This document shows positions 1 through 17,728 of a DNA stretch of 36,508 nt, one piece after another; within the stretch, counting starts at the first letter, position 1; every line of letters begins with the position of its first letter. This DNA comes from Elusimicrobiota bacterium. Its GTDB lineage: Bacteria; Elusimicrobiota; Endomicrobiia; Endomicrobiales; Endomicrobiaceae. A model generated the notes under the pieces. The model ran no database searches, was not told the DNA's origin, and saw nothing but the letters and a program-made list of their open reading frames with translations. Location: the NCBI GenBank assembly GCA_031274365.1, contig JAISQF010000021.1, positions 1-36,508 of the forward strand, given 5' to 3'. The translations under genes and the position numbers were made by a program.

Positions 1-118
1 ACATCGCACAACATCGCACAACATCGCACAACATCGCACAACATCGCACAACATCGCACAACATCGCACAACATCGCACAACATCGCACAACATCGCACA
101 ACATCGCACAACATCGCA
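1..118. repeat. 10-bp tandem repeat, about 12 copies
   Basis: The unit acatcgcaca is repeated head to tail eleven times perfectly, then eight bases of a twelfth copy. The array runs into the left window edge, so its full length is unknown. The unit has no stop codon in any frame on either strand. The array ends 36 bp before the first possible start (TTG 155) of the autotransporter gene and is open in the same frame as that gene. Perfect identity of the copies suggests a recently active, slippage-prone tract. Confidence 0.97.
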
Positions 119-154
119 TTCTTTAATATAAATTTTGAACAAAAAGTCAAGGGT

Positions 155-3100
155 TTGTTTTGTTTTTTAGCTACAACCGCCGCGGACATTTGCTCATACT
201 GTAAGCTAAAGCATACGGTTAATAAAGTGTCGTCTCTGCGGGACTATGCGGTAATTGTAATTGCGTTATTTATAGGAAGTTTTAATATTGCACAAGCGAC
301 TGATTATAATATAGACACTTTTTCAGCAGGAGGGGCAGATAACGGATTATTAGATGATTATAATTCAAGCAGCATTGACGACGACAGTATTTTCAATATC
401 CTTGCCGCCATTACCTTTGGAGATAATCTAACCGATAATCCTGATTGGGCGACTTTGTCTATAAGAGGTTGGGATAGCTCTGGTGGCGGTGCGTATAAAT
501 TACAAACATTAGATGGAGATAATAGTTATTTAGGTTTTAGTCTAACAAATAAAACGATAGATTTTTCGTATTTGAGTTTTGAGAACTTTAAGACATCAAC
601 ATACGGCGGAGTGATTTATGCGGATGAATCTATAATAACATTTGATGGACAAATAAATTTTATAAACAATACGGCTGGGAATGCCGGCGGGGCGATATAT
701 GCTGAATTCGGGTCGTCGGTGGGATTTATAGCGGGCGGGGATATTTTGTTTATAGGAAACACCGCGGCAGGATTGGCAAACGATATTTATTTGGATAATG
801 CGCTGCTTTATATGGACGCAAAGAATTATCAAATAACAATGGACGACGGAATAAAAGCGTATAACGGCAGCACGATTACATGGCAAGATACAGGCGACGG
901 GGTTTGGGTGTTGGGCGGTATAAATGAATTTGATAATTTGGGCTTATTTCAAATAAATCACGGTTCGATAACGGTGATGAATGCGAGCTGGACATGGACA
1001 AATAATGATAATGTAGATTTGGATTTAATGAATTCAACGATGAGTTTTATAAATACTTTAGTGAATTTTGAAAACAATACGACTAATGACCATGGCGGGG
1101 CGATTTTTCCTGTTAATTCTCAATTAAATTTTATCAATTCATCGGTAAGTTTCATAAATAATAAATCCCCGTCTGACTCCGGCGGGTATTCCGGCGACGG
1201 CGGAGCGCTTGATATTTATTGGTATTCGCAGGTGAACTTTGAGAATTCAATAGTAAGTTTTACTAACAATTATGCCCTCCATGAAGGCGGAGCGATTGTT
1301 CTTGAAGCGGATAACTCAGAAACTTATTTTTTGCAGGCAACCTTTGAAAATTCAACAGTGAGTTTTACAAACAATTCTTCTAACTATGGCGGAGCGATTG
1401 TTCTTTACCGCAGCCAAGCAAACTTCACAAAATCAGAGATAAATTTTACAAGCAATATAGCCGCCGGCGCCGGCGGAGCGATTGGTATTGAGCTTGTCAG
1501 CCGATTAAACTTTAGAAATTCATCGGTAAGTTTTACAAGCAATACAGCCGGTCAATATGGCGGGGCGATTTTTCTTGAAATTGAGTCGGAAGTGAACTTT
1601 ATAGATTCTTTAGTAAGTTTTATAGATAATGCGGCTAACATTGACAATAGCGCTGGCGGGGCGATTTGGCTTGCGCATAATTCGGTGTCGCCAAATAATT
1701 CGCAAATAAACTTCACAAATTCAACAGTGAGTTTCACAGGCAATACTGCCGGTTATGGCGGGGCGATTTATCTTGCCGACAGTGGTTCAGAATTAATATT
1801 TAGCAATACAGAAGCGATTTTTGAAGGAAATAAAGCGACAACCGTAAATGGCGGCAATGACATTTATAATCAAGGCGTGATAAATATTTTGGCCAAAAGC
1901 GAAGTGATACTCAGGAGCGGGATAAACGGCGGAGGAAGTATAAATATAGAAAATGCGGTATTGCGGGTATCGGCGGATAATTCTAATGCAAATGAGATAA
2001 CGGTAAACGGGGGAATGTTTTCATTGGTTGATGTTGGAAATACAAATGAATATTCGACAAAGACATTTAGCGTGAACGTATTAAATTTAATAAACGGCGG
2101 GACATTGGAGATAGGAATAGTGCTGAGCACAAATGCAAGCGATTTAATAGATTTGGAAAACGGTGAAATGAAAATTGATGTTGGCAGCAAATTAAATATC
2201 AGATATTTTGGTCAATGGCAATCAATAGAATCTTATGTGATAGCAAAAGGGACGATAAATAATGATGATTGGAAAAATTTTAATTATAATAAAAATTATT
2301 ATTCATTAGATTATGATAAAGATGGGAAACGTTTGCTGTTATCATCACTGATTAATCCCAATATAAATTCGTCTATAAAAGACATGGTGAACGCGGTATT
2401 TGTGGCAAATGTAATAAGGGAAATAGGGCGTGTGGACAACAGTGAAATATATGAAAACAGTCATAAGGACGTATGGGTATTAGGGGGAGTAAAAGGAGCA
2501 AAAGTGCACGATCTTACGGATAAAGGGTATGAAGCAAAAGCGGGGATAGCGATAATAAGGAAGGAAAATTGGCGGGCAGGGATTTACGGGGGATATTTAA
2601 GCGGTGCGATAGAGGATGAAAGCAACGAAGCGGATATTGAAGGGACGGAAGCTGGGATATACGGCTCATATTTATTTATGGAAAAAGTAAAGCTGCAAGG
2701 AGTTGCGGGATATAGAGTGTCGACGGTAAAATTAAATGCAAAGAAAAAGGGAGCAAATTTTGAAACGCAGGAAATGAGATTTGGAATAGAGGGTGAGTAT
2801 GAGACGGGAAAACAGTGGAGTCCGTTTATATCGGTTGAAGGTTCGGAAATTTCGCATAAAGAAATAAAACAATATGATGAAGAAACGGAAATAGGAATTA
2901 TAGAAGCAAATCAATATTTGAGAATGGACGCTAAGGGAGGAGTAAAAATAAAATTGAGAGGGATTAATGTCAGAGGATATATGGGCTATACAATGGATGG
3001 GCTGATACCTGAATTAAAATACAGGGTGGAGGACGAAGAGTTAAAGGCGAAAGCGGCGGAACAATCGGCGATATTTTTCGGATTAGGGATTGGAGGGGAA

Positions 3101-3244
3101 ATACCGGTTAGCCGAAACATATCAGCTTTTGCTAATGGCAGAATGCACATCAATAATGATTATTTTACATATGGCGTAAATGCGGGTCTAAATTATAAAT
3201 TTGCGCAAAATATGAAAAAACCGCGCCGCCATAAACGATTATAA
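155..3244 (+). CDS. Autotransporter with polymorphic-OMP (GGAI/FxxN) repeats, paralogue 1
   Basis: A predicted surface-exposed autotransporter of up to 1029 residues. A hydrophobic segment ending in FNIAQA (about residues 31-48) looks like a signal peptide but lies well inside the longest frame. GTG at 227, just before it, is therefore a better start than TTG 155, although neither has a convincing ribosome site. Residues about 150-560 carry roughly nine repeats of the form FxNSxVSFxxN followed by GGAI, the pattern of Chlamydia Pmp passenger beta-helices. A linker region (about 570-760) is followed by an autotransporter beta-barrel (about 771-1016) starting near DVWVLGG and ending NYKF. Unusually, the protein continues 13 residues past that final aromatic strand with a basic tail (KKPRRHK). 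The 5' end is built from sequence also found in intergenic repeats, so the native start may have been lost. The frame stays open upstream through the 10-bp repeat to the window edge. Function is inferred as adhesion or surface variation. Confidence 0.85.
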   Translation: MFCFLATTAADICSYCKLKHTVNKVSSLRDYAVIVIALFIGSFNIAQATDYNIDTFSAGGADNGLLDDYNSSSIDDDSIFNILAAITFGDNLTDNPDWATLSIRGWDSSGGGAYKLQTLDGDNSYLGFSLTNKTIDFSYLSFENFKTSTYGGVIYADESIITFDGQINFINNTAGNAGGAIYAEFGSSVGFIAGGDILFIGNTAAGLANDIYLDNALLYMDAKNYQITMDDGIKAYNGSTITWQDTGDGVWVLGGINEFDNLGLFQINHGSITVMNASWTWTNNDNVDLDLMNSTMSFINTLVNFENNTTNDHGGAIFPVNSQLNFINSSVSFINNKSPSDSGGYSGDGGALDIYWYSQVNFENSIVSFTNNYALHEGGAIVLEADNSETYFLQATFENSTVSFTNNSSNYGGAIVLYRSQANFTKSEINFTSNIAAGAGGAIGIELVSRLNFRNSSVSFTSNTAGQYGGAIFLEIESEVNFIDSLVSFIDNAANIDNSAGGAIWLAHNSVSPNNSQINFTNSTVSFTGNTAGYGGAIYLADSGSELIFSNTEAIFEGNKATTVNGGNDIYNQGVINILAKSEVILRSGINGGGSINIENAVLRVSADNSNANEITVNGGMFSLVDVGNTNEYSTKTFSVNVLNLINGGTLEIGIVLSTNASDLIDLENGEMKIDVGSKLNIRYFGQWQSIESYVIAKGTINNDDWKNFNYNKNYYSLDYDKDGKRLLLSSLINPNINSSIKDMVNAVFVANVIREIGRVDNSEIYENSHKDVWVLGGVKGAKVHDLTDKGYEAKAGIAIIRKENWRAGIYGGYLSGAIEDESNEADIEGTEAGIYGSYLFMEKVKLQGVAGYRVSTVKLNAKKKGANFETQEMRFGIEGEYETGKQWSPFISVEGSEISHKEIKQYDEETEIGIIEANQYLRMDAKGGVKIKLRGINVRGYMGYTMDGLIPELKYRVEDEELKAKAAEQSAIFFGLGIGGEIPVSRNISAFANGRMHINNDYFTYGVNAGLNYKFAQNMKKPRRHKRL

Positions 3245-4056: not shown

Positions 4057-4379
4057 AAACTTTCATTAAAATTAATATTTGCTTTTCAACTATTGAATTT
4101 GATATAAAATATTGACGACTTAAATTGAGATGTTTTTATGTTTTATATGCTGATACCAATTTGTTACTTTTCTATTTTCATCTATCTTGACTGCTCGCTT
4201 ACAGGGATGTCTTTTTCAAAATCAAAAGGATTTTTTTGTGTTTAACAAAATGTATTTTTCAAAAACTATAAATGTTTCAAATTTTTTCAAAAATTCTGAT
4301 ATTTTGGATTTTTTATCATTGATTGTAAGCTTGTTAAAGGACAATGCTTTGGCGAGCGACAATGCGCTAAAAGAGACTA

Positions 4380-4394
4380 CCCCCCCCCCCCCCC
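4380..4394. repeat. Poly(C) tract, 15 C, upstream of second autotransporter
   Basis: An uninterrupted run of 15 cytosines in otherwise AT-rich DNA, about 185 bp before the preferred start of the second autotransporter. Homopolymeric G/C runs of this size are known contingency loci in several bacteria, including Chlamydia pmp genes, whose repeat motif the downstream gene shares. Here the run lies outside that gene's coding sequence, so any effect would be on transcription or on a small open frame that crosses it. Confidence 0.95.
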
Positions 4395-4457
4395 TATTCG
4401 CAATTAACTTTATTAAAAAAATCAATAATAATTTTAAGTTTTATAATATTCAAAAAG

Positions 4458-4490
4458 GCAATGAATTTATTTTCATTGCTTTTTTTATTT
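4458..4490 (+). terminator. Intrinsic terminator between the poly(C) tract and the second autotransporter
   Basis: Perfect 8-bp arms GCAATGAA (4458-4465) and TTCATTGC (4472-4479) enclose a 6-nt loop and are followed by a run of seven T and then ATTT. The opposite strand also has a run of five T after the stem, so it could work in both directions. It would block or attenuate any transcript coming from the poly(C) region toward the autotransporter. Confidence 0.75.
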
Positions 4491-4578
4491 ATGGAAAATG
4501 CCGGAATTTTTTATTTTGGCGGTTTTTTTGCCATAAAAGACGGAAGTAAAATAAAAAATGGAGAATAATGGAGAAGAA

Positions 4579-7500
4579 ATGAATAAATTTTTCAAAAGTC
4601 TAATTGCAGGCGCAATATTATTATTTGTGGGCGGGGTATCTTTTGCGCAAACTGATATAGGGGATTTCCTCACGTTAAATACTCTCTGGACAGGAGGGGA
4701 TAATGTTAGCGGGCAATTAACTGCCGATATTAATTTTTTGGACAATTTGGGAAATGCGGGCGCTTGGGCTAACTTTACAATTGACGGGGCAGGACATAAG
4801 TTTGATGGAAGGAAAAAAACTGGATTTAAGACATTATCAGCGGGGCAGACGCTAACATTTTTGAATTTGAATTTTATGAATTTTATGACATCAACATATG
4901 GCGGAGCGATATGGGCAAGCCAATCTACAATGACATTTAACGGACCAATAAATTTTACAAGCAATACCGCTAATTATGGCGGAGCGATTTTTGCAAGCCA
5001 ATCCACAATGACATTTAATGAAAAAATAAATTTTACAGGCAATATCGCTGTCGGCGCTTCAGTCTCCTCTGGCGGGGCGATTTTTGCAAGTCAATCTACA
5101 ATAACATTTAATGGAGAAATAAATTTTACAAGCAATAGCGCTAATTATGGCGGAGCGATTTATGCGGAAGGCGGGTCGTTGATAGAATTTATAGCGGTCG
5201 GAAATATATTGTTTAGAGGAAATAAAGCAAATGGCGCGGCAAATGATATTTATTTAGATAATTCAGGACTCTATTTGGATGCCGGTGTTTATCAAATAAC
5301 AATGGAAGGCGGAATAAAAGCATATAACGGCAGCGTGATTAGCTGGGCAAACGGCGCGGGCGGAAGCTGGGTATTGGGCGGAATAAATGAATTTAATGGT
5401 TTAGCTTCATTTAATACAGCCGAACAAAGTTTGATAACGGTTATAAATGCGAGCTGGACATATGTAAGTAATGCGACTTTGGAATTAAGCAATTCAACGA
5501 TGAGCTTTATAAATTCGTCTGTGAGTTTTGTAAATAATGAGGGGGATACTTATGACGGGCTCGGAGCGATTTCTCTCGACAGTAATTCACAATTAAATTT
5601 CACAAAATCAATAGTAAATTTTACAAGCAATACTTCACACGGTGAAGGCGGAGCGATTTCTATTATGGATTTTTCGCAAGCAAACTTTGGAAATTCGTCG
5701 GTAAGTTTTACAGGCAATAGCGGCAATTACGGTGCGATTTTTCTTACCTATGCCTCATTTGCAAACTTCGCAGATTCAGTAGTGAGTTTCACAAGCAACA
5801 CCGCCGTCTATGGCGGCGGAGCGATAAATATCGACAGCTACTTCTCATCAGCAAGCTTCACAAATTCAGTAGTGAGTTTTACAAGCAACACCGCCGTCTA
5901 TGGCGGCGGGGCGATTATTATTTCTGATAACGATTTGCAAGTGGACTTTGAAAATTCGTCGGTAAGTTTTGTAGGCAATAGCGTCTCTGGTTTGGGCGGG
6001 GCGATTTTTATTTCACATGGGGAAGTGAACTTTACAAAATCAATAGTAAATTTTACAAGCAATACAGTCGACAGTACAGACATCGGCGGCGGCGGAGCGA
6101 TTGCTCTTGCGTATGACGACCAGGTTGCTCCAATATTAACATTCAGCAACACAAAAGCGATATTTGAAGGAAATAATGCGCCATCCGGAAAAGACATTTA
6201 TAATCAGGAGGGCAGTGTGATAAATATTTTGGCCAAAAGCGAAGTGATACTCAGAAGCGGGATAAACGGCGATGGAAATATAAATATAAAAAATGCAGTA
6301 TTGCGGGTGACGGCGGACGGCTCAAATACGGGGGGGACGATAGCGGTAGATGCGGGGACATTTTCTTTGGTGGATTTAGAAAGTTACTCAAATTGGGGAT
6401 CAACAAAAACATTTACTGTTGATACAATAAATTTCACAAACGGCGCTACATGGGAGATAGGAATATTGGGCGCCACTGATTATTACAGTGATTTAATAAT
6501 CTTGTCAGACCGGATGAGCGTGGGAGAGATGACCGTATTAAATATAAGATTTTATAAGCCTTGGGATGCAAAAAAACATAGTTATATAATAGCGCAAGGG
6601 ACAGTGATTTCCCCTGAGAATTTTGTTGTAAATGACGAAAATATTTATTCGTTGAATTACGAAAATGATAATTTAATACTGACATTAGGTTCGAATTATT
6701 GGGATATATTTTATTGGAATGGAAGCGAGCCGTCAAACAGTTTGCTGCCGGTGTATAATGGTTTGGCGGCGGACGTCGATAAATTAAATATTAGGGCTGA
6801 CATAACTTTTGGCGGGGCATTGTCAAGCATGGCGGATTGGAAGACATTGACGATAAGAGGGGTGAAATCGACACCCGGCTCGGATACAGCTCAATTGAGG
6901 ACATTTGACGGAGTAAATATTTATCCAGGGTTTAGTTTGGCAAGTAAAGAAATGACATTTTCGTATTTGAGTTTTAATAATTTTACAACATCAACATACG
7001 GCGGAGCGATATGGGCAAGTCAATCAACAATAACATTTAACGGTCAAATAAGTTTTATAGGAAATACAGCGGCGTCAAACGGAGGGGCGGTCTCGCTTGA
7101 CAATACGCAAATGAGTCTTACAAAGTCATCTGTGAGTTTTATAAATAATACGAGCAACGGAAACGGCGGAGCGATTTATCTTTCAAATAATTCACAATTA
7201 ACTTTTGAGAATTCAACGGTGAGTTTCATAGGAAATCAAGCAAAAGAAGCCGGAGCAATATTCATAGCCGGCGGGACGGTGACATTTGTAAATTCATCGG
7301 TAAACTTTGCAGGAAACAGGGCAACTAATGAAACATCAGAAGATTCGGCAGGAGCGATAACGATAGGAGGCGGGGCATATCTAAACTTCATAAACACCGC
7401 AGCGAACTTTGAAGATAACGACAGCGCGTTTTGGGATGGCAACGATATAATTGTTGACGGTATAATAAACATAATAGAGGGCAGCAAAGTGACTATACAC

Positions 7501-9885
7501 TCGCAGATAAATACTAATAATAGCGGGACGATAAATATAGGCAATGGCGGGTGGTTAAAGGTTATGGGCTACTTAGAAAATCTGGATGACTGGGCGACGA
7601 CAAATGTCAATAGCGGGGGGCTGTTAAGCTTATTAATTGATAGTTTTGTGGATGGAACTATAAATGTAACGGGCGGGACAATATCATTTGTAGATAAGGA
7701 CTTAGCGGTTGGCTATTCTACAAAAACGGTAGAGGTTGATGATTTGAATATGAAGGAATCAAGCAGGATAGAGATAGGTGTAGTTGGTAATGCAAACGCT
7801 AATGACGCGATAGCAATTGACGATAGGATGACTATAACAGGCGACGATATTTGGTTAGATATAATAAATTATACGCCGTGGGACGGGTCGCGAAGGGTCT
7901 ATGTAATAGCGACTGGGAATATAGACGATTCGGATAAACTGCAGTATGATGAGGAGAAATATGAATTAGTTTATGGTAGTCAAAAATTGACATTGAGTAT
8001 GAAAGGGTGGACGAGCTGGGACATAAAGTATTATAAGGAAGCGGATGACGATGATGAGAGTTTGGTATCGGTGTGGGACAGTTTATTGAATAATGATGAT
8101 GACAAGATATTGAATATATTGGCGTATATGAAATTTACGGATAAATTAGCCGATAATCCGACAGGCAGCTGGACAAAACTTACGATAAGGGGATTGGACA
8201 AGAGCAAGGGCGCGGGCGCGGCGGCAATAAGGACTTTGGACGGGAACAATAATTATGCGGGTTTTAGTTTGATAGGTAGAACATTGACATTTTTGGATTT
8301 GAATTTTGTGAATTTCTCGACATCAACAAACGGCGGAGCGATTTTTGTTAGCAATGATTCGCAAGTAAATTTCACAAGTTCAACGATAAATTTTACGGGA
8401 AATAATGCAGACGGAAACGGCGGAGCGATATATAATGACAGCATGGGAGAATTGATATTTAGAAATTCGAAAGTTATTTTTGAAGGAAATAATGCGGCAT
8501 CCGGCAAAGACATTTATAATAACGGCGTGATAAATATTTTGGCCAAAAGCGAAGTGATACTCAGGAGCGGGATAAACGGCGGCGGAGAAATAAATATAGA
8601 AAATGCGGTATTGCGGGTGTCGGCTGATAATTCTAATGCAGAAGTTATAACGGTAAAAGGCGGGGGCGTATTTTCATTAGTGGATGCGCAAAATGCAAAT
8701 GAATATTCGACAAAAACATTTAGCGTTAACACATTGAATTTGAACAATGGCGGGGCATTAGAAATAGGCATAGTGTTAAGTTCTGACACGAGTGATTTAA
8801 TAGATTTGGGAGTATCAGGAGAGATGAATGTTGACATTGGCGGAAAGCTAAACATTAGATATTTTGGGCAATGGCAAACAGCGAGGAGTTATGCGATAGC
8901 GCAAGGAACAGTAAATAATTGGGAAGGATTAGTTTATGATAAGGGACATTATTTATTAGATTATGATGAAAATACATTATTTTTACGTGCGCTGAGTGAT
9001 CCGAGTATAAACCCGATAAAAGACATGGTGAACGCGGTATTTGTGGCAAATGCAATAAGGGAAATGGGGCGAGTGGACAACAGTGAAATATATGAAAACA
9101 GTTATAAGGACGTATGGGTATTAGGGGGAGTAAAAGGAGCAAAAGCGCACGATCTTACGGATAAAGGGTATGAAGCAAAAGCTGGCATAGCGATAATAAG
9201 AAAGGAAAATTGGCGGGCTGGGATTTACGGGGGATATTTAAGCGGGACAATAGAGGATGAAAACAACGATGCGGATATTGAAGGGACAGAAGCTGGGATA
9301 TACGGCTCATATTTATTTAAGGAAACGATAAAGCTGCAAGGAGTTGCAGGATATAGAGCGTCAACGGTAAAATTAAATGCAAAGCAAAAAGGCGCGAATT
9401 TTGAAACGCAGGAAATGAGATTTGGAATAGAGGGTGAGTATGAGACGGGAAAACAGTGGAGTCCGTTTATATCAATAGCAGGCTCGGAAATTTCACATAA
9501 AGAAATAAAACAATATGATGAAGAAACGGAAATAGGAATTATAGAAGCAAATCAATATTTGAGAATGGACGCAAATGGAGGAGTAAAAATAAAATGGAGA
9601 GGATTTAATATCAGAGGATATATGGGCTATACAATGGAAGGAGGAATGCCTGAATTAAAATATAGGGTGGAGGATGAAGAGTTAAAGGCGAAAGCGGCGG
9701 AACAATCGGCGATATTTTTTGGATTAGGTATTGGAGGGGAAATACCGGTCAGCCGAAACATATCAATGTTTGCCAATGGCAGAATGCACATCAATAATGA
9801 TTATTTTGTATATGGCGTAAATGCGGGTCTAAATTATAAATTTGCGCAAAATATGAAAAAACCGCGCCGCCATAAGCAATTATAA
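4579..9885 (+). CDS. Large autotransporter with three polymorphic-OMP modules, paralogue 2
   Basis: A predicted surface autotransporter of 1768 residues. ATG 4579 is chosen because ggag at 4570-4573 lies five bases upstream and the protein then begins with a clean signal peptide (MNKFFKSLIAG ... VSFAQ); ATG 4558 in the same frame adds seven residues. The passenger holds three successive modules (roughly 4640-6560, 6700-7960 and 8010-8990 in DNA). Each opens with a TLTIRG/LRTxDG-like block and FxTSTxGGAI, followed by FxNSxVSFxxN/GGAI repeats and, in two cases, the INILAKSEVILRSGING block. The C-terminal beta-barrel (from about 9109) is nearly identical to that of the upstream paralogue, again with the basic tail KKPRRHK after the final NYKF. 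No passenger cleavage site was identified. Chlamydial Pmp proteins with these repeats are adhesins; that role here is inference. Confidence 0.9.
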   Translation: MNKFFKSLIAGAILLFVGGVSFAQTDIGDFLTLNTLWTGGDNVSGQLTADINFLDNLGNAGAWANFTIDGAGHKFDGRKKTGFKTLSAGQTLTFLNLNFMNFMTSTYGGAIWASQSTMTFNGPINFTSNTANYGGAIFASQSTMTFNEKINFTGNIAVGASVSSGGAIFASQSTITFNGEINFTSNSANYGGAIYAEGGSLIEFIAVGNILFRGNKANGAANDIYLDNSGLYLDAGVYQITMEGGIKAYNGSVISWANGAGGSWVLGGINEFNGLASFNTAEQSLITVINASWTYVSNATLELSNSTMSFINSSVSFVNNEGDTYDGLGAISLDSNSQLNFTKSIVNFTSNTSHGEGGAISIMDFSQANFGNSSVSFTGNSGNYGAIFLTYASFANFADSVVSFTSNTAVYGGGAINIDSYFSSASFTNSVVSFTSNTAVYGGGAIIISDNDLQVDFENSSVSFVGNSVSGLGGAIFISHGEVNFTKSIVNFTSNTVDSTDIGGGGAIALAYDDQVAPILTFSNTKAIFEGNNAPSGKDIYNQEGSVINILAKSEVILRSGINGDGNINIKNAVLRVTADGSNTGGTIAVDAGTFSLVDLESYSNWGSTKTFTVDTINFTNGATWEIGILGATDYYSDLIILSDRMSVGEMTVLNIRFYKPWDAKKHSYIIAQGTVISPENFVVNDENIYSLNYENDNLILTLGSNYWDIFYWNGSEPSNSLLPVYNGLAADVDKLNIRADITFGGALSSMADWKTLTIRGVKSTPGSDTAQLRTFDGVNIYPGFSLASKEMTFSYLSFNNFTTSTYGGAIWASQSTITFNGQISFIGNTAASNGGAVSLDNTQMSLTKSSVSFINNTSNGNGGAIYLSNNSQLTFENSTVSFIGNQAKEAGAIFIAGGTVTFVNSSVNFAGNRATNETSEDSAGAITIGGGAYLNFINTAANFEDNDSAFWDGNDIIVDGIINIIEGSKVTIHSQINTNNSGTINIGNGGWLKVMGYLENLDDWATTNVNSGGLLSLLIDSFVDGTINVTGGTISFVDKDLAVGYSTKTVEVDDLNMKESSRIEIGVVGNANANDAIAIDDRMTITGDDIWLDIINYTPWDGSRRVYVIATGNIDDSDKLQYDEEKYELVYGSQKLTLSMKGWTSWDIKYYKEADDDDESLVSVWDSLLNNDDDKILNILAYMKFTDKLADNPTGSWTKLTIRGLDKSKGAGAAAIRTLDGNNNYAGFSLIGRTLTFLDLNFVNFSTSTNGGAIFVSNDSQVNFTSSTINFTGNNADGNGGAIYNDSMGELIFRNSKVIFEGNNAASGKDIYNNGVINILAKSEVILRSGINGGGEINIENAVLRVSADNSNAEVITVKGGGVFSLVDAQNANEYSTKTFSVNTLNLNNGGALEIGIVLSSDTSDLIDLGVSGEMNVDIGGKLNIRYFGQWQTARSYAIAQGTVNNWEGLVYDKGHYLLDYDENTLFLRALSDPSINPIKDMVNAVFVANAIREMGRVDNSEIYENSYKDVWVLGGVKGAKAHDLTDKGYEAKAGIAIIRKENWRAGIYGGYLSGTIEDENNDADIEGTEAGIYGSYLFKETIKLQGVAGYRASTVKLNAKQKGANFETQEMRFGIEGEYETGKQWSPFISIAGSEISHKEIKQYDEETEIGIIEANQYLRMDANGGVKIKWRGFNIRGYMGYTMEGGMPELKYRVEDEELKAKAAEQSAIFFGLGIGGEIPVSRNISMFANGRMHINNDYFVYGVNAGLNYKFAQNMKKPRRHKQL

Positions 9886-10074: not shown

Positions 10075-11460
10075 TCAAATAGATTTCGGAAATGTAACGA
10101 CAAATTTGCTGCCCTTGTTCGGTTTGCTTTGCGCAACCACTGTCCCGCCATGCGCCGCAATTACCGACTTGACAATAGCAAGTCCAATCCCCGCGCCGCC
10201 TGTGTTTCGGTTGCGGGATTTATCAGCGCGGTAAAAACGCTCAAAAATAAACGGCAGTTCGTTTTCAGGAATTCCCGCGCCGCTATCTTCAATTGTCAAC
10301 ACGACTTCGCTATCAGTCTCCCGAACGGAAATTTGAATATGTCCGCCTTTCGACGTGTATTTCACAGCATTGGACATAAGATTACCGATAACGCCGCCGG
10401 TTCTGTCTTTGTCTATTGACACAACTGCGGGCATTCCGTCTATATCAAGTCTCAGATTTTTGTTTGATAGTTCGCCCGCGAAATTCTCGCAAACGCTGCG
10501 GGTAAGCGCGAGTAAATCTGTCAGCGTTTTATCTAATTTCAAGTTATCGCTGTCGGCGCGTTCCAACCGTTCTAAATCCATAACCATCTTGCCAAGACGC
10601 AGGATTTCCTCATGGCAGCTTTTAAGCCGCGCGGGGGTTGGTTGCCATATACCGTCGATCATCGCCTCAGTGTGTGTGCCGAGGGCGGCAAGAGGAGTGC
10701 GAAGCTCGTGCGCGACATCAGCGGTCAGCCGCTTGCGTAAATTTTCTTGTTTGGACAGGGCGTTTGCAAGATGATTTACAGATGATACCAAATCTAAAAG
10801 TTCTTTCATTTTCGTTCCGCTTTCGAATTGAATATCATATTTGCCTGCCGCAATTTGACCGGCAATTTCCGCTGTTTTTGTCACAGGCCGGGCGATACGT
10901 CTTGCCAAAATCAAACCCGCTATAAATGAAAACAACAATGATGACACGCCGACAATCATCAGCATAGTATTAAGCGAACTTATAAAATCAAAATCGCCCT
11001 CAGTCAAAAAATAAGGACCAAAATAACTAACGGTTACAGAACCAATCTCTTGTCCGTTTTGCGTCAATGTATATTTATGCGAAGCGAAATTTCCGGTTGC
11101 GCCATATTCCTTCATTCTGCTTGTAATATCGTCCATGATGTGTTTGCACTCTGTCATATCGTGGTTTTCCGCGTCCCAAATATTTTCGCCAACGCGGTTA
11201 TATACCTTAATAATATAGCCTTCTTCTAATGCATCCATCCCTACGGTACGAACAGCGTTTATATTCCATGTGTGCGTAAAACTGTTGTATTGCAGGCTCA
11301 AGTCGCTCAAGATATGATCAGTCCTTTGCGTCTGTGTTTTCGTTATGTATGATTCAAATTGGCTGCTTACCAACGTATTTGAAAAAAAGCTGATAATGGA
11401 AACCGTAATCAGTACAACCAGCATAAACGCCAATGATAATTGTGTTTTAAGACTTCGCAT
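10075..11460 (-). CDS. Membrane sensor histidine kinase of the copper block
   Basis: A 461-residue sensor kinase. Two membrane segments (about 7-29 and 161-185) enclose a periplasmic sensor domain of about 130 residues. HAMP follows (about 186-237), then a HisKA domain with the phosphoacceptor H251 in VAHELRTP, and an HATPase domain with N box (NLMSNAVKYT, from 360), G1 box DSGAGIP (392-398) and G2 box GAGIGLAI (422-429), all intact. Its ATG directly abuts the stop codon of the response regulator, with no gap, so the two are surely cotranscribed and probably form a pair. Position at the end of a copper export operon suggests that it senses metal or envelope stress, but the sensor domain has no recognised copper motif. 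Its base composition matches the copper block, not the AT-rich flanks. Confidence 0.93.
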   Translation of the reverse strand: MRSLKTQLSLAFMLVVLITVSIISFFSNTLVSSQFESYITKTQTQRTDHILSDLSLQYNSFTHTWNINAVRTVGMDALEEGYIIKVYNRVGENIWDAENHDMTECKHIMDDITSRMKEYGATGNFASHKYTLTQNGQEIGSVTVSYFGPYFLTEGDFDFISSLNTMLMIVGVSSLLFSFIAGLILARRIARPVTKTAEIAGQIAAGKYDIQFESGTKMKELLDLVSSVNHLANALSKQENLRKRLTADVAHELRTPLAALGTHTEAMIDGIWQPTPARLKSCHEEILRLGKMVMDLERLERADSDNLKLDKTLTDLLALTRSVCENFAGELSNKNLRLDIDGMPAVVSIDKDRTGGVIGNLMSNAVKYTSKGGHIQISVRETDSEVVLTIEDSGAGIPENELPFIFERFYRADKSRNRNTGGAGIGLAIVKSVIAAHGGTVVAQSKPNKGSKFVVTFPKSI

Positions 11461-12162
11461 TTATGCGCCTCCGAACTTATATCCAAGTCCGTGTATTGTA
11501 ATGACATAGTTCGGATTTTTGGAATCGTCTTCAATTTTTTTTCGCAGATTCTTAATATGATTATCAATTGCGCGGTCAAAACTATCAAACTCATCGCCAA
11601 AGACAATATCAATAAGCTCCGCCCGGGTGAACACTCTGCCCGGGTATTTAATCAGCGCTGCGAGAATTTTCATCTCGCTGGGCGTTAAGCTGACGGGTTG
11701 CCGATTTTTCAAGACGGTGTTATTTTCAAAATCAACGATTAAATCCCCGTTGCAAAAAGAGTTTTTTACTGTTAGGGGAATTAAATCGCCGGCGGTTCGC
11801 CGCAGGACGGCGTCAATCCGCGCCGCAAGTTCTTTTAAGCTAAACGGTTTTGTGATGTAGTCGTCCGCGCCGATATTAAGTCCCTCTATCAAATCGTTTT
11901 CCTCAATTTTAGCCGTCAGCATAATAATAGGCGCACGGGATTTACTTCGTATCCTGCGGCAGATTTCCTCTCCGGAAATATCGGGCAGCATCAAGTCAAG
12001 AAGAATCAGCGCTATGTTTTCACGTTCAAAGATTTCAAGCGCTCGTTTTCCGTTTTGTGCTGTAAATACAGTGAAGGTGCGGCTTTCCAAAAATGAGGAA
12101 AGCACTTCCAAGATTTTTGGCTCGTCATCCACAACTAAAATATTTTTATTTTTCAAAATCAT
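11461..12162 (-). CDS. OmpR/PhoB-family response regulator
   Basis: A 233-residue two-domain regulator. The receiver domain (about 5-120) has the acidic pair D12/D13, the phosphoacceptor D56 in LLDLMLP, T83 and K105. A winged-helix DNA-binding domain (about 135-230) includes LTPSEMKILAAL and ends with HGLGYKF. It lies 21 bp after the small HMA protein and runs straight into the kinase gene. The targets are not visible, but the copper genes of the same operon are the obvious candidates, which would make the operon autoregulated. A gagg element about nine bases before the ATG supports the start. Confidence 0.94.
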   Translation of the reverse strand: MILKNKNILVVDDEPKILEVLSSFLESRTFTVFTAQNGKRALEIFERENIALILLDLMLPDISGEEICRRIRSKSRAPIIMLTAKIEENDLIEGLNIGADDYITKPFSLKELAARIDAVLRRTAGDLIPLTVKNSFCNGDLIVDFENNTVLKNRQPVSLTPSEMKILAALIKYPGRVFTRAELIDIVFGDEFDSFDRAIDNHIKNLRKKIEDDSKNPNYVITIHGLGYKFGGA

Positions 12163-12183
12163 CGATATAGCCTCGTCGCAGCG

Positions 12184-12393
12184 CTAAGTAATCACCCGAT
12201 ACCCGGTGCCATTGATTGCGCCGACAATTGCACCCGCTGTTACTAACGCCGCGTCAAATTCCGCGCCAACTTCTTTTTTGCGTCTATCGGCTTTTACTTT
12301 TTTAATGCCGGGTAGTTTACGCACAGCGTCTTGAATCACAATTTCGCAATACCCGCAAGACATTCCGTCAACGCGCAAAGTTATTTTTTTCAT
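12184..12393 (-). CDS. copZ: Small HMA-domain copper chaperone (CopZ-like)
   Basis: A 69-residue protein made of a single heavy-metal-associated domain with the metal-binding motif MSCGYC (C13 and C16) in the usual beta1-alpha1 loop. Proteins of this kind carry Cu(I) in the cytoplasm and pass it to the N-terminal domains of CopA or to a regulator. The tyrosine before the second Cys differs from the more common A/N/H. An aaggag ribosome site precedes the ATG. It lies between the lipoprotein and the response regulator with short gaps on both sides. The family is clear; copper specificity is inferred from the neighbours. Confidence 0.88.
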   Translation of the reverse strand: MKKITLRVDGMSCGYCEIVIQDAVRKLPGIKKVKADRRKKEVGAEFDAALVTAGAIVGAINGTGYRVIT

Positions 12394-12418
12394 AACGCAT
12401 CTCCTTTTTATAGTCCTC

Positions 12419-13210
12419 TTACTGCAAATTAAACGCTTTCAAAAATTTATAAACATCGGTCGGCTTGCCGTTAATATCAACGTTTACTGTGGTATATATC
12501 CAACCCTTAACCTTTTTGGGATCAACGCCCGCCGCAATAAGAGGTTCCGGGTTTAACACAAATACGATGTCCTTATCCTGATTTTCCTTTGTCGTGCCGT
12601 TCGTGGATAAGTCCTTTGCCCACTCAAAGAGATTTCCATCGCCGAGATTTACATTGTAATGATCAAGTGCGGTGTGATAGCCGATAGAATCGCGGTATTT
12701 TTTGACGATTTGTTCATACGCCGCCAAAGCTGTGGGCTTGCCGCTGTATTTCAAATCGTCGCCGCCTAACTTAGTTCCCACTATCAGCATACCTTTATAT
12801 ATTGTATAGTTTTTCGGCAATTTGCTCGTATCAAGTCCCGCGTCCACAAATGGTTTTGCGTCAAATTCCAACATCACGTCGTAGAGCGGACTTTTGCTGT
12901 AATTCTCGCTCCATATAAAACGCACCGTATTGTCCGGCGCCGAGAGCGACCATCCGACATTCATTTCGTCTGCTTGAACTTTGTCAGGGATAGCGTTCAA
13001 AACTTTTTCAAACGATGAAACGGAATCCTTGCCCACCACATCTAACCCGGACAATCCGGAGCAAGCCGTCAATGCCGCCGCCATCACTGTAACTGCGAGT
13101 GCAAATTTTCCATAGAGGAAAAAAGATTTGACATTACCGGGCACCATCACCTCTGCAACTGCAAGTGCAATTTTCCTAATAGAATTTTTCATTTTGCGCT
13201 TCATTTTCAT
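12419..13210 (-). CDS. Predicted lipoprotein of unknown function in the copper operon
   Basis: A 263-residue protein whose N-terminus ends in a lipobox L47-T-A-C50, so it should be lipidated at C50. The leader is unusually long because it seems to contain two signal-like stretches (RKIALAVAEVM and GKFALAVTVMAAALTAC), and the DNA shows a matching direct duplication. The start is supported by aaaggag seven bases before the ATG. The mature part is not recognised. It holds similar phrases in two places (AKPFVDAGLDTSKL and PEPLIAAGVDPKKV, each preceding a K/G-Y/W-I-Y stretch), which suggests two related halves. No Cys/Met/His cluster typical of copper storage is visible. Its place between copA and the chaperone suggests a periplasmic or outer-membrane role in metal handling, which remains inference. 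Confidence 0.8.
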   Translation of the reverse strand: MKMKRKMKNSIRKIALAVAEVMVPGNVKSFFLYGKFALAVTVMAAALTACSGLSGLDVVGKDSVSSFEKVLNAIPDKVQADEMNVGWSLSAPDNTVRFIWSENYSKSPLYDVMLEFDAKPFVDAGLDTSKLPKNYTIYKGMLIVGTKLGGDDLKYSGKPTALAAYEQIVKKYRDSIGYHTALDHYNVNLGDGNLFEWAKDLSTNGTTKENQDKDIVFVLNPEPLIAAGVDPKKVKGWIYTTVNVDINGKPTDVYKFLKAFNLQ

Positions 13211-13315
13211 TTTCGTTCTCCTTTAATCTTATGCAATTTTTCTAATAAAATTTTTTATTATGAATCAATCCTTTATTCTACATCCTGCAAAGTTGCGCTT
13301 TGTCGGGAACATCGT

Positions 13316-15799
13316 TTAGTTTTTCACCTTAAATCTTTTCAAACGCAGAGCATTTGTGAGTACTGAAACCGAACTTAAACTCATGGCGGCGGCGGCAAAT
13401 ATCGGATTAAGCAGAGGTCCGCCAAATAGATAAAGCGCGCCCGCGGCGATCGGTATGCCGACCACATTATAGCCGAATGCCCAAAAGAGATTTTGCTTGA
13501 TATTGCGTATAGTTGCGCGGCTTAGATTAATCGCTGTCGGCACATCCATAAGGTCGCTTCGTATTAACACGATGTCCGCCGATTCCATCGCCACATCCGT
13601 GCCGGAGCCGATTGCAATTCCGATGTCTGCCTGCGCCAATGCGGGAGCGTCGTTTATTCCGTCGCCAACCATTGCCACCTTGCGTTTTTCCATTTGCAAT
13701 TTCTTGACCTCATTAGATTTATCCTGCGGCAAAACCTCGGACAGCACGCGGTCAATCCCGACTTGCTTGGCTATAGCCGCGGCAGTTTTTGCATTGTCGC
13801 CGGTAATCATTACCGCCTCAATGCCCATTTTGCGCAGAGTTTCAATAGCGGATTTGCTTGACTGTTTTACTACGTCGGCCACTGCGATAACTCCGGCGAG
13901 TGCGCCGTTAATCGCCACATACATAGGCGTTTTGCCCTCGCTTGCTAATTTGTCGACGGCTTCCGTAAGCATGGAAAGCGGGATATTCCGTTCGTCCATC
14001 AGTTTTCTGTTTCCCGCGAGGATTGTCTTTTCGCCGATTTTCGCCTCAATACCGCGTCCAGTTATGGAGTTAAACTCGTCCACCGGCAAGAATTTCAATC
14101 CCTTGTCCTGAGCGGCGATTACGATTGCCTGCCCAAGCGGATGTTCGGAGCCTTTTTCCGCGCTCGCCGCGAGCGCAAGCAGGGAATTATTGCCGCATAG
14201 ACTCTCTGCGCTGCCGTCTATCGTCAAAATGTCGGTCACTGTCGGCTTGCCCTCAGTAATTGTGCCTGTCTTGTCAAAGACGATGATATTTATTTTATGC
14301 GCGGTTTCAAGCGCCTCGCCGCTCTTAATAAGAATTCCATTTTCCGCGCCCTTGCCGGTCCCCACCATTATCGCTGTCGGCGTCGCAAGTCCCAAAGCGC
14401 AGGGGCACGCGATGACAAGCACAGAGATAAAAATAGTCACAGCAAATTTCAAATCTCCACCCGTGCCGAAATACCAAGCGATTCCCGATGAGAGAGCAAT
14501 TATACAAACCACCGGAACGAAGTAGCCGGATACGATGTCGGCCATTTTCGCAATTGGGGCTTTGCTGCCCTGAGCGTCTTCCACCAATTTTATAATCTGC
14601 GCCAGAACCGTATCAGCGCCGATTTTTTCCGCGCGAAATTGCATAGAGCCCGTTGTGTTTAGCGAAGCGGCATACACCGCGTCTCCCGCCTTTTTATCCA
14701 CAGGCATACTCTCGCCCGTGAGCATTGATTCGTCAATTGATGTATTGCCGGAAACAACCGTGCCGTCCACCGGAATTTTCTCGCCGGGCTTTACTACAAT
14801 AATGTCGCCGATTTCCACTTCGTCAATGGGAATTTCACGCTCAATGCCGTCAGAAATCACAATAGCGGTTTTGGGCGCAAGACCCATCAGTTTTTTGATT
14901 GCCTCGCTTGTCCTGCCTTTAGAGACGGCTTCAAGCGATTTGCCTAAAAGTATCAGCGTGATGATAACGCCCGCCGTTTCAAAGTAGAGCGATTCCACCG
15001 CCGCAAATCTGCCCGCGGCGATTTGCCAAGTGTTGTAGATGCTGTATAGCACAGCCGCCGTCGTCCCTATGGCAATAAGGCTGTCCATATTTGGACTTCG
15101 CATCCAAAGCGCCTTAAACCCGATGGTGTAGAATTTATAGCCCACGCTGATAACGGGAATGACAAGAATCAATTCCGCCAGCGCATAGAGCAACGGATAA
15201 TTCATCGGATCAAGTCCGCCGGGGAATGGAAGCTGAATTACTTTAATCATCGGAACCATTGCGATGTAAAGCAGAGGCAGGGAAAACACAGCCGACACGA
15301 TGAATTTCGTCCATAGCGTTCGAATTTCTTTCTGTTTGCGCTCTCTATCCTCGTCGGCGGCATCAGTTTTGGAAAACTCTAATGCCTTGTAGCCCGCCTT
15401 TTCGATAGCTTCTTTGATGATTGATACCCGCGTCTTTGCGGGGTCATAAGCGACCGCCGCTTTCTCCGTAGCGAAATTTACGGAGACGTTTGTCACACCG
15501 TCTAACTTTTTAATCGCTTTTTCCACCCGCTGTGCGCAGACCGCGCATGTCATACCGCCAATCGGTATGGTAATATTGCTATTGTCCGTCTTTTCCACTA
15601 CTTCATAGCCAATTTTTGTTACGGCCTCTTTGATAGCGGGAATAGACAGACTTGCCGCGTCATATTCCACGAACAGTTTCTCGCTTGCCAGATTCACATT
15701 CGCCTGACTGATACCCGACAACTTTCGGACAGTCTTTTCAATCCTCTGCGCGCAAGCCGCGCATGTCATACCTCTGATACTCAATACTTGATTCTCCAT
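13316..15799 (-). CDS. copA: Copper-exporting P1B-type ATPase CopA
   Basis: An 827-residue ATPase that pumps Cu(I) from the cytoplasm. Two N-terminal HMA domains carry MTCAAC (C13/C16) and MTCAVC (C85/C88). Eight membrane segments are expected. Visible motifs are the TGES actuator loop (361-364), the CPC ion-binding motif (465-467), the phosphorylated aspartate D509 in DKTGT, the HP motif (553-554), the hinge GDGINDAP (712-719), and YN and MSLSS in the last two helices, together typical of Cu(I) transport. All catalytic residues are present. The ATG is preceded by gaggtgat at good spacing. It is the first gene of the minus-strand operon and is transcribed divergently from the HxlR-family regulator through overlapping promoters. 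Confidence 0.97.
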
Positions 15800-15837
15800 A
15801 TTTGGATCACCTCACTCATTAAACATTGATGTTCTAG

Positions 15838-15866
15838 TTGACAATTTTCAATTGCCATGATATTAT
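15838..15866 (+). promoter_or_regulatory. Promoter of the HxlR-family regulator gene
   Basis: A TTGACA -35 box (15838-15843) and a TATTAT -10 box (15861-15866) are separated by exactly 17 bp, facing right. The expected transcript start is near 15873. The -10 box overlaps that of the copA promoter on the other strand. Confidence 0.7.
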
Positions 15867-15881
15867 TATAACTATAATAAT
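15862..15881. promoter_or_regulatory. Perfect palindrome over the divergent -10 boxes
   Basis: The arms ATTATTATA and TATAATAAT surround a 2-bp centre and are perfectly complementary. The palindrome covers both -10 boxes, so it could be an operator or simply follow from the two AT-rich -10 elements. Confidence 0.55.
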
Positions 15882-15892
15882 TTATTTTTCAA
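15865..15892 (-). promoter_or_regulatory. Promoter of the copA operon
   Basis: On the minus strand a TTGAAA -35 box (15892-15887) and a perfect TATAAT -10 box (15870-15865) are separated by 16 bp, giving a leader of about 59 nt before copA. The two divergent -10 boxes share two base pairs, so RNA polymerase should not be able to occupy both at once. Confidence 0.7.
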
Positions 15893-15916
15893 GTATGCAC
15901 TTTATTGTGCCATACT
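15892..15916. promoter_or_regulatory. Candidate operator, interrupted inverted repeat
   Basis: The left arm AGTATGCAC (15892-15900) matches the right arm GTG-C-CATACT (15907-15916) apart from one extra base, around a 6-bp centre. It touches the copA -35 box and lies in the leader of the regulator gene. HxlR-family proteins bind as dimers to inverted repeats of this general size, so the site is a good candidate for control by the adjacent regulator. Confidence 0.5.
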
Positions 15917-15946
15917 ATACAAAAGGAAAGTATGGAGGATATAAAT

Positions 15947-16318
15947 ATGACAAACTGCAATTGCACAGGGCTTAATTGTCCCGTTGACACTACGCTGCGT
16001 CTGATTGGCGGAAAATACAAATCCTTGATTCTATGGCATCTCATCAATGGCGCTTTGCGCCACAGTGAAATTCACCGTTTGATTCCGCAAGCCACGCCCA
16101 AAATGCTGACACAGCAACTTCGTGAGCTTGAGCGGGACAACTTGCTTTTTCGCACCGTTTATCCCGTTGTGCCGCCAAAAGTGGAATATGCGCTCACGGA
16201 CTCCGGTCTGAGTTTGAAACCTATTTTGTTTGCTATGTATGACTGGGGCGCGAATTATTTACGGGATAATGGCAGGGAAATCAACTGTTCTATGACGATG
16301 GATGTCCGCGAAACTTAA
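15947..16318 (+). CDS. HxlR-family transcriptional regulator, Cys-rich; candidate copper or redox sensor
   Basis: A 123-residue winged-helix regulator of the HxlR family, recognised by CPVDTTLRLIGGKYKSLILWHL near the N-terminus, RFSEI-like RHSEIHRLIP, and TPKMLTQQLRELERDNL for the recognition helix. ATG 15947 is preferred because ggagg (15934-15938) lies eight bases upstream; longer frames lack such a site. Besides the family's usual Cys (C11), it has C4 and C6 (CNCTGLNC) and a C-terminal C114-x-M116-x-M118 group, possible thiol/thioether ligands for Cu(I). HxlR members usually sense electrophiles or oxidants through the conserved Cys. It is divergent from copA and shares its promoter region, so it is likely to regulate copA. 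Confidence 0.88.
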   Translation: MTNCNCTGLNCPVDTTLRLIGGKYKSLILWHLINGALRHSEIHRLIPQATPKMLTQQLRELERDNLLFRTVYPVVPPKVEYALTDSGLSLKPILFAMYDWGANYLRDNGREINCSMTMDVRET

Positions 16319-17728
16319 TTACACCACAGTGATAGAGCCTCTTATCATACCCATCCAGCAGCTATACCGGAATGTGCCGGTTTTATCCGGCGTGAACTCA
16401 ATGATATTTTCACCTGTTTTGAACTGATAGCGTATGCCGTATTCCGGTATCCGCATTCTATTATTACAACCGTTAATACTGCCCTGCGGCGCGTCTATTG
16501 TCCATTTCACGGGCTTTCCAACTTGGACGGTAATTGATGGATAGCGTCCGCCCGCAAGTGTGCTTTTAACAATTTGGATGCCGTTTTCTATAACAATGTT
16601 AGAAGCATTTGACGGTCCTCTTGCGGCAAGCGCTGAATTGGGTGCGGATAGAAAGTCAAGAGATAATCCCGAAAGAGTCCAGCCTTGTGATAACATTGAA
16701 AAACCAAGAATCATAACTAATACGGCGCCAACAGTCATAACTTTGTGCGTAAATTTTTTACTGAGCATTGAACTCAACGCGCCAAGCCCGAACATCATGG
16801 GCACGGTTCCGAGAGAAAATAGCAGCATGGACAATGCGCCCGTAATGGGGCTTCCTGTGGAAAGAGCGTAAATTTGCATGGCTTGCAAAGGCCCGCATGG
16901 CATAAAGCCGTTTAGCAGTCCGACGATAAGCGGACTATTACCGCTCGATTTTTTCTCGTCTATTTTGCGGGAAAATATACGCGGCATACTCGGTGTGAGT
17001 TTTCTTATAATTGGAAAAATGCCAAACATATTGATTCCTATAATAATCATAAATATGCCGGCTGCAAGTTTCAGTATTCCTTGCAGGCTGCTCGAAAAAG
17101 AAAGAACCGAACCGAGCGCGCCGACAAGAAAGCCAATGGCTGTATAGGAAACAACCCGTCCGAGATTATATAGGAAGCTGGGGCGCAAGGCTGCAGCGCT
17201 GTTGACGCCGGCTTTGCCTATCTGTGCGGATTGCGACATGCTCTTGGCCGGCGGTATGCACTGAGAGAGATTTATTCCTCCGCACATAGCGATACAGTGA
17301 ACTGAAGTCAAAAGTCCGATGACAAACAGCATTGCATAACCCATATCAGCCTCGGCGGTTGGGAATAGGTTAAAAATCTCCGTAAGACCGAAATGTCTTG
17401 CCAATATGAATAGCGCAAGCAGTATTATTAGGATGCCGACGGCGTGCCTATAATCCGTTTTTGGAGCTTTGTCCGTCAACACCTCATAGTCCAACTTTTC
17501 AATGACTGCCGTAATATCTTTTATTGATATAATGTCAGTATCATAGGTGATTTCAGCGGTTCCTGTTCTATAGCTGACACTTGCGCTTAAGACGCCCGCA
17601 GTGTTTCGCAGTTTCTTTTCGATTTTGTTTTGGCAGCTTATACATGTCATACCGCCGATTCTCATTTTTTTTGATTTGATTTCCGATTCCATAAAGCGAC
17701 ATTTCCTCCCTTTATTTGATATTCTCAT
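16319..17728 (-). CDS. HMA / TauE-SafE (DsbD_2-like) membrane / cupredoxin fusion protein
   Basis: A 469-residue, three-part protein. The N-terminus is an HMA domain with MTCISC (C29/C32). The middle (about 95-350) is a polytopic membrane domain of the TauE/SafE or DsbD_2 type, with paired motifs SVHCIAMCGG and NGFMPCGPLQ. The C-terminus (about 370-469) is a cupredoxin-like domain with SINGCNNRM and YSCWMGM (C457, M459, M461) as probable copper ligands. Such fusions occur in copper loci of anaerobic Firmicutes. A role in moving or delivering copper across the inner membrane is inferred. An internal ATG at 17692, with gggagg twelve bases upstream, is an alternative start that keeps the HMA domain. 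Its stop codon directly abuts that of the HxlR gene on the other strand. Confidence 0.87.
   Translation of the reverse strand: MRISNKGRKCRFMESEIKSKKMRIGGMTCISCQNKIEKKLRNTAGVLSASVSYRTGTAEITYDTDIISIKDITAVIEKLDYEVLTDKAPKTDYRHAVGILIILLALFILARHFGLTEIFNLFPTAEADMGYAMLFVIGLLTSVHCIAMCGGINLSQCIPPAKSMSQSAQIGKAGVNSAAALRPSFLYNLGRVVSYTAIGFLVGALGSVLSFSSSLQGILKLAAGIFMIIIGINMFGIFPIIRKLTPSMPRIFSRKIDEKKSSGNSPLIVGLLNGFMPCGPLQAMQIYALSTGSPITGALSMLLFSLGTVPMMFGLGALSSMLSKKFTHKVMTVGAVLVMILGFSMLSQGWTLSGLSLDFLSAPNSALAARGPSNASNIVIENGIQIVKSTLAGGRYPSITVQVGKPVKWTIDAPQGSINGCNNRMRIPEYGIRYQFKTGENIIEFTPDKTGTFRYSCWMGMIRGSITVV

Follow-up and report, generated by a model that had tools for sequence, protein, structure and literature searches.

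In the Bordetella fim promoters the C-stretch, which precedes a surface-protein gene, acts in the promoter or close to it, and in the pmp genes of Chlamydia a G/C run sits within the coding sequence. The poly-G of Treponema pallidum tpr and the repeat of Neisseria nadA are examples of a homopolymer or short repeat placed 5' of a surface-protein gene and within or near its promoter. In the gut symbiont Bifidobacterium breve, replication slippage in the G-tracts of coding genes controls the pilus, and G-tract templates are known to yield false G ends (the ‘G's end’) on Illumina instruments (PMC9187656). In the pil1 locus of Streptococcus gallolyticus the repeats lie within a leader ORF, the basal frame of which stops 39–49 bp short of a terminator; the remaining frames extend up to or past it, and the translating ribosomes then prevent termination (Danne et al. 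2014, PMC3894217). For homopolymers located between a promoter and its gene (‘position 3’), the mechanism has been described as not fully worked out (PMC4514472).

The tract considered here lies in a window of 36,508 nt, by which is meant the whole stretch of DNA that was analysed; it is contig C8 of a fragmented draft assembly (1.04 Mb, 22 contigs, 59% complete). A preliminary description of the window had reported a run of 15 C at 4380–4394 of the plus strand, unexpected by chance and upstream of a Pmp-like autotransporter, and had regarded it as a likely contingency tract. The run has that length and position, bordered by AGAGACTA on its 5' side and TATTCGC on its 3' side, and as the draft assembly is fragmented the length of exactly 15 is the assembler's consensus. 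No other C run in the window exceeds five; about 3e-7 runs of 15 or more would be expected there, and the longest C run across 30 dinucleotide-preserving shuffles of the window was nine. The protein encoded downstream is also as described, with Pmp repeats (matches to PF02415 and TIGR01376) and a signal-like N-terminus. Its C-terminal domain is predicted to form a beta barrel (pLDDT 83) that resembles EspP, EstA and NalP, with EspP as the best fold match (TM 0.71). This likeness came from the fold search, since a sequence search of the PDB gave no match for the autotransporter; no Pfam autotransporter domain matched its sequence, a search of the genome contigs with the whole protein returned no match, and a barrel profile search found two distant matches only, one of them in Candidatus Endomicrobium embiratermitis. 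On the strength of that match the family is tentatively taken to be the one to which Endomicrobium belongs.

The run was originally placed outside the gene. It does precede the autotransporter start at 4579 (or at 4558), and it is thus not a run inside the regulated coding sequence as in Chlamydia pmp10. It does, however, fall within a reading frame of its own, which had earlier been raised only as a possibility: the frame is open from the GTG at 4238 through the C run as far as the TAA at 4549 (Table 1). No leader frame joins the autotransporter without a stop.

Table 1. Features of the leader and autotransporter locus, in window coordinates.
Feature	Position	Strand	Remarks
Putative leader promoter TTGCTT-18-TATAAA	4079..4108	+	Consensus match; -10 box 4103-4108
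Shine-Dalgarno-like AAGGA	4226..4230	+	7 nt 5' of likely leader start; from sequence
Leader ORF at C15	4238..4549	+	GTG 4238 or ATG 4250 to TAA 4549; 103 codons from GTG
C15 tract	4380..4394	+	Encodes Pro codons of leader
Leader stop, phase C13/C16 (predicted OFF)	4405..4407	+	44 nt 5' of hairpin 1
Terminator-like hairpin 1	4452..4485	+	14 bp, -14.5 kcal/mol, T run
Terminator-like hairpin 2	4500..4520	+	-8.6 kcal/mol; then T7 (4522-4528)
Leader stop, phase C12/C15/C18 (predicted ON)	4547..4549	+	Beyond both hairpins, 30 nt before ATG 4579
Leader stop, phase C14/C17 (predicted ON)	4566..4568	+	Beyond both hairpins, 10 nt before ATG 4579
Pmp-like autotransporter gene	4579..9885	+	ATG 4579, GGAGAAG upstream; alternative in-frame ATG 4558

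The leader belongs to a family with eight copies in the genome, the profile of which matches 4250–4390 at E 3.8e-21. Most members finish in a C run, with various genes downstream. In two copies, at the start of contig C15 and the end of contig C17, GT2 glycosyltransferase genes begin with the leader and its run as their N-terminal part, and in the assembly neither gene is in frame. Other copies precede a nickel hexonate-epimerase gene (contig C4, run of 15 C) and an alpha/beta hydrolase gene (contig C2, run of 18 C, the leader being cut by the contig end). On contig C1 a degenerate leader with two stops and a run of 19 C stands before a broken autotransporter, and on contig C11 leader and hairpin stand before a TRAP-type transporter gene with the C run missing. 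In a second leader family (L211, contig C4) the stop runs directly into the start codon of an MBOAT O-acyltransferase (TAAATG), with a run of 10 C in frame, and a related copy with 16 C ends likewise on the start of a truncated MBOAT copy (runs at about 189642 and 191252). It was also considered whether C runs serve as a recombination hub that swaps leaders among genes, an idea that was dropped as duplication explains the repeated leader.

Several features suggest that the leader is kept open. The gaps between leader copies are 18, 9 and 3 nt inside the ORF, and upstream of the ORF they are not multiples of three. The seven scorable copies are without a stop, each being weak evidence by itself (P 0.03 to 0.37) and the copies being mutually related. 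Codon-position bias is absent, with differences of 213, 214 and 228 at the three positions in a total that includes the contig C11 copy in the wrong frame, and because of this lack of bias only the maintenance of the frame is claimed and not that of the peptide. The frame thus appears to be kept whilst the peptide sequence drifts. In five copies of the family a motif of the form TTGNNN-17/18-TAYRAA occurs 280–320 nt 5' of the tract end (about 290 bp at C15), and the assignment of a promoter upstream of the leader rests on this conserved motif and its consensus match. No match near threshold was obtained in Rfam. The 59 other genomes of the family that were searched, one congener among them, hold no copy of the leader.

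The length of the tract determines where the leader stops. One frame ends tens of nucleotides before hairpin 1 and the other two cross it, and a second open frame of such length after the run has a probability of 1.5e-4 in shuffles, so that two open frames past C15 are unlikely to have arisen by chance. The epimerase leader on contig C4 has the same pattern of two open frames and one closed (P < 5e-4). The pattern is not general, since the loci on contigs C1, C17 and C2 keep a single frame open each. Between leader and gene lie two predicted intrinsic terminators, both at least 58 nt 5' of the autotransporter ATG. The 61-nt stretch around hairpin 1 folds at z -5.5, and over four loci its pairing is preserved in 100% of alignment cells with three compensatory pairs, as against zero in slid controls. 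A counterpart of hairpin 2 exists at the contig C1 autotransporter locus.

This anatomy, a repeat inside a leader ORF 5' of the gene, matches that of S. gallolyticus pil1, and for this reason a C-tract attenuator, ON at C15, is proposed. RNA polymerase would start at the leader promoter and transcribe, in order, the leader ORF with its C run, the two terminators and the autotransporter. Slipped-strand mispairing would alter the number of C and with it the frame in which the leader finishes. At C13 or C16 the ribosome would halt at 4407, the hairpins would form and most transcription would end before the gene (OFF or LOW). At C15, and likewise at C14 or C17, the ribosome would cross both hairpins and hold them open (ON or HIGH), with leader translation finishing close to the autotransporter start, and translational coupling may then add to the attenuation. 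That transcription begins from 4079–4108, that the leader is translated, that the hairpins terminate transcription, that the tract slips in vivo and that expression is affected are all inferred here from sequence.

The proposal is supported by the leader family, the frames here and at the contig C4 epimerase leader, the leader gaps in multiples of three, the covariation of the hairpin, the conserved promoter motif, the out-of-frame coding tracts and a parallel in another genus (see below) and the S. gallolyticus precedent. Against it, hairpin 1 has few G-C pairs, hairpin 2 is weak and the promoter and terminator calls are consensus matches; moreover, three loci keep one frame open only, the leader shows no codon-position bias, the contig C11 copy has no run, the contig C1 leader has two stops, and the leader is without a counterpart in the searched other species of the genus. 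On balance, we favour with moderate confidence the view that C15 supplies the hypermutable element of a phase-variable attenuator before the autotransporter, in the ON state as assembled.

As in S. gallolyticus pil1 and pil3, a simple repeat in a leader ORF would control a surface structure, and the gap between stop and terminator, 44 nt, is of the kind seen there. Unlike in S. gallolyticus, the repeated unit is a single C rather than the pentamer GCAGA, the phylum is a different one, there are two tandem hairpins, and the leader family recurs before many genes and is partly fused to coding genes. The likeness to Chlamydia pmp lies in the pairing of a Pmp-repeat, autotransporter-like protein with a G/C homopolymer, which in a congener (L203, G001:C51) does lie within a Pmp-like autotransporter gene, towards the 5' end of its coding sequence (C13 at 2651–2663, out of frame in the assembly); the window run differs in sitting in a separate leader ORF and not in the pmp-like gene. 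With tpr, nadA and Bordetella fim the locus shares a repeat 5' of a surface-protein gene, but their repeats are within or near the promoter whereas the present one is about 290 bp downstream of the motif and in a reading frame. The B. breve pilus is likewise a matter of G/C runs, a surface structure, a gut symbiont and the Illumina artefact, although the tract there is in a coding gene that lacks a leader or terminator.

The preliminary description had left open whether a switch would work through transcription or through a small frame. A frame on the plus strand across the run fits best, and an effect on promoter spacing is a poorer fit, the conserved promoter motif being some 290 bp 5' of the end of the run. 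No -35 and -10 boxes flank the C run in the manner of the tp0126 or porA spacers, and a plain intergenic run acting through promoter spacing was rejected on that ground. A transcriptional tract could nevertheless act from the 5' side of a promoter, its length altering the access of activator or polymerase, as in the nadA, tpr and Bordetella fim type, for which there are known precedents (PMC2791445, PMC7864442). Such a promoter would be located in 4404–4447, 3' of the run, where there is a promoter-like TTAACT-17-AATAAT (4404–4432) and where TTTTATAATATT, containing TATAAT at 4442–4447, is conserved in the window and at the contig C1, C17 and C11 loci. Yet the -35-like box of the 4404–4432 candidate is not conserved in contigs C1 and C17, and a transcript from the TATAAT would start within hairpin 1. 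This explanation also fails to account for the open frames of the leader, for the leader family and for the upstream promoter motif, and it is considered unlikely.

Less probable still is that translational coupling is the whole mechanism, with a leader in the right frame delivering ribosomes to the autotransporter start and the hairpins masking the start region instead of terminating transcription. Such an arrangement would suit the MBOAT loci and a second genus (G006), where the leader runs as far as the start codon of the main gene, and also phase C14/C17, which finishes 10 nt 5' of ATG 4579; it does not suit the C15 phase, which ends 30 nt away, nor hairpins that lie at least 58 nt 5' of the ATG and have T runs, hairpin 1 also covarying as a stem. 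The leader and run might instead be a relic, copied before the autotransporter with other DNA and having no effect there, in keeping with the repetition of the leader before unrelated genes, the degenerate copy on contig C1 and the lack of codon-position bias. A pure 15-nt run in an open leader would, however, erode unless it were selected or of recent origin, compensatory change preserves hairpin 1 and the layout recurs in G006, all of which makes a relic improbable. Finally, a chimera of assembly or amplification joining leader to autotransporter at the C run is very improbable, for whilst several contig ends carry artefactual-looking C or G runs of 22–70 and false G ends are a known Illumina product (PMC9187656), leader and hairpin stand in this order also at contig C11, with no C run, and at the contig C1 autotransporter, with a degenerate leader and C19; a misjoin was therefore discarded as the main reading.

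The wider genome bears on whether C15 is a contingency tract at all, whatever its mode of action. There are 19 runs of at least C12 preceded by a non-C base, in addition to runs at contig starts, where about 0.003 would be expected. Clear coding genes with such runs encode a GT8 protein, a hexapeptide acetyltransferase, a PTS transporter, three FkbM methyltransferases, the two GT2 enzymes and a large membrane protein that is glycosyltransferase-like by appearance. In the assembly eight of the nine are out of frame, which is consistent with slippage and with one ON length in three. The genome-wide set and the frames agree with the original assignment, and C15 is very probably, as judged from sequence, a phase-variable contingency tract; a genome-wide set of surface genes is probably phase-variable in these gut bacteria. 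The three FkbM genes (L189, L218 and L224 on contigs C21, C11 and C22; one in frame, two out of frame) have a common N-terminal segment up to the G run, followed by variable bodies. At the starts of contigs C1, C3, C6 and C18 (L206, L190, L213, L223), leaders or other sequence run into 22–70 C or G, probably because C runs provoke the G-end artefact of Illumina sequencing. Where a contig end has a leader passing into 28–70 G, as several do, this known artefact would be the explanation (PMC9187656).

Half of the sampled genomes of the family (30 of 60) have at least one run of at least C12, with a maximum of 36 in one genome and zero in many. In another genus (G005), runs of C16 and C18 are found at the 5' ends of Pmp-like autotransporter genes. 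The parallel in G006 (L263) consists of an unrelated leader with C13, after which the frames are 144, 4 and 164 nt long (second-frame P 0.026), and of a strong terminator between the run and the gene for a probable outer-membrane protein, and other leaders of this genome show the start-codon overlap version before autotransporter-like genes. The C-run leaders of G006 (L256, L260, L263, L267, L269) stand before autotransporter-like genes and also before outer-membrane-protein-like and enolase-superfamily-like genes, both of the latter named by eye. Among the 11 C runs of G023, a nearly closed relative, none was followed on the C strand by a pair of long open frames, and at most sampled tracts of G005, G013 and G014 the leader arrangement was not found, the runs being in or beside coding genes or at contig ends.

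It can be suggested, tentatively and as rather less than an even prospect, that a portable cassette of promoter, leader ORF, C tract and either terminator or start-codon overlap brings many unrelated genes of this Endomicrobium-related lineage, among them those for autotransporters, O-acyltransferases, glycosyltransferases and sugar-acid enzymes, under the phase-variable control of a leader, and that unrelated sequences gave rise to this logic again in a second genus, which would make it a general and overlooked class of contingency locus. If true, the S. gallolyticus pilus-locus mechanism would also apply in a distant phylum and with a repeat of one base, and ‘position 3’ tracts would gain a testable anatomy made up of tract length modulo 3, translation of the leader and terminators. 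Our literature search found no report of phase-variable surface genes in this group of gut bacteria, and such switches would escape annotation pipelines, since the run has the appearance of intergenic DNA.

The suggestion that each autotransporter paralogue has its own variable tract holds in part. Of the roughly eight autotransporter-like loci of the genome, only two have a C run upstream. The first autotransporter of the window (2–3244) is associated with a 10-bp array of ACATCGCACA (11.8 copies, window 1–118), which runs off the contig end. The array is open in the frame of the gene, and an ATG is lacking between it and the signal peptide; the start may therefore lie upstream of the array, in which case changes in the number of units would shift the frame. 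Elsewhere in the window, the region 10075–17728 has a GC content of about 0.45, above that of the rest of the contig, and encodes a histidine kinase/response regulator pair, a P-type ATPase with HMA domains and a DsbD-like protein with HMA; these two-component and heavy-metal genes were perhaps acquired.
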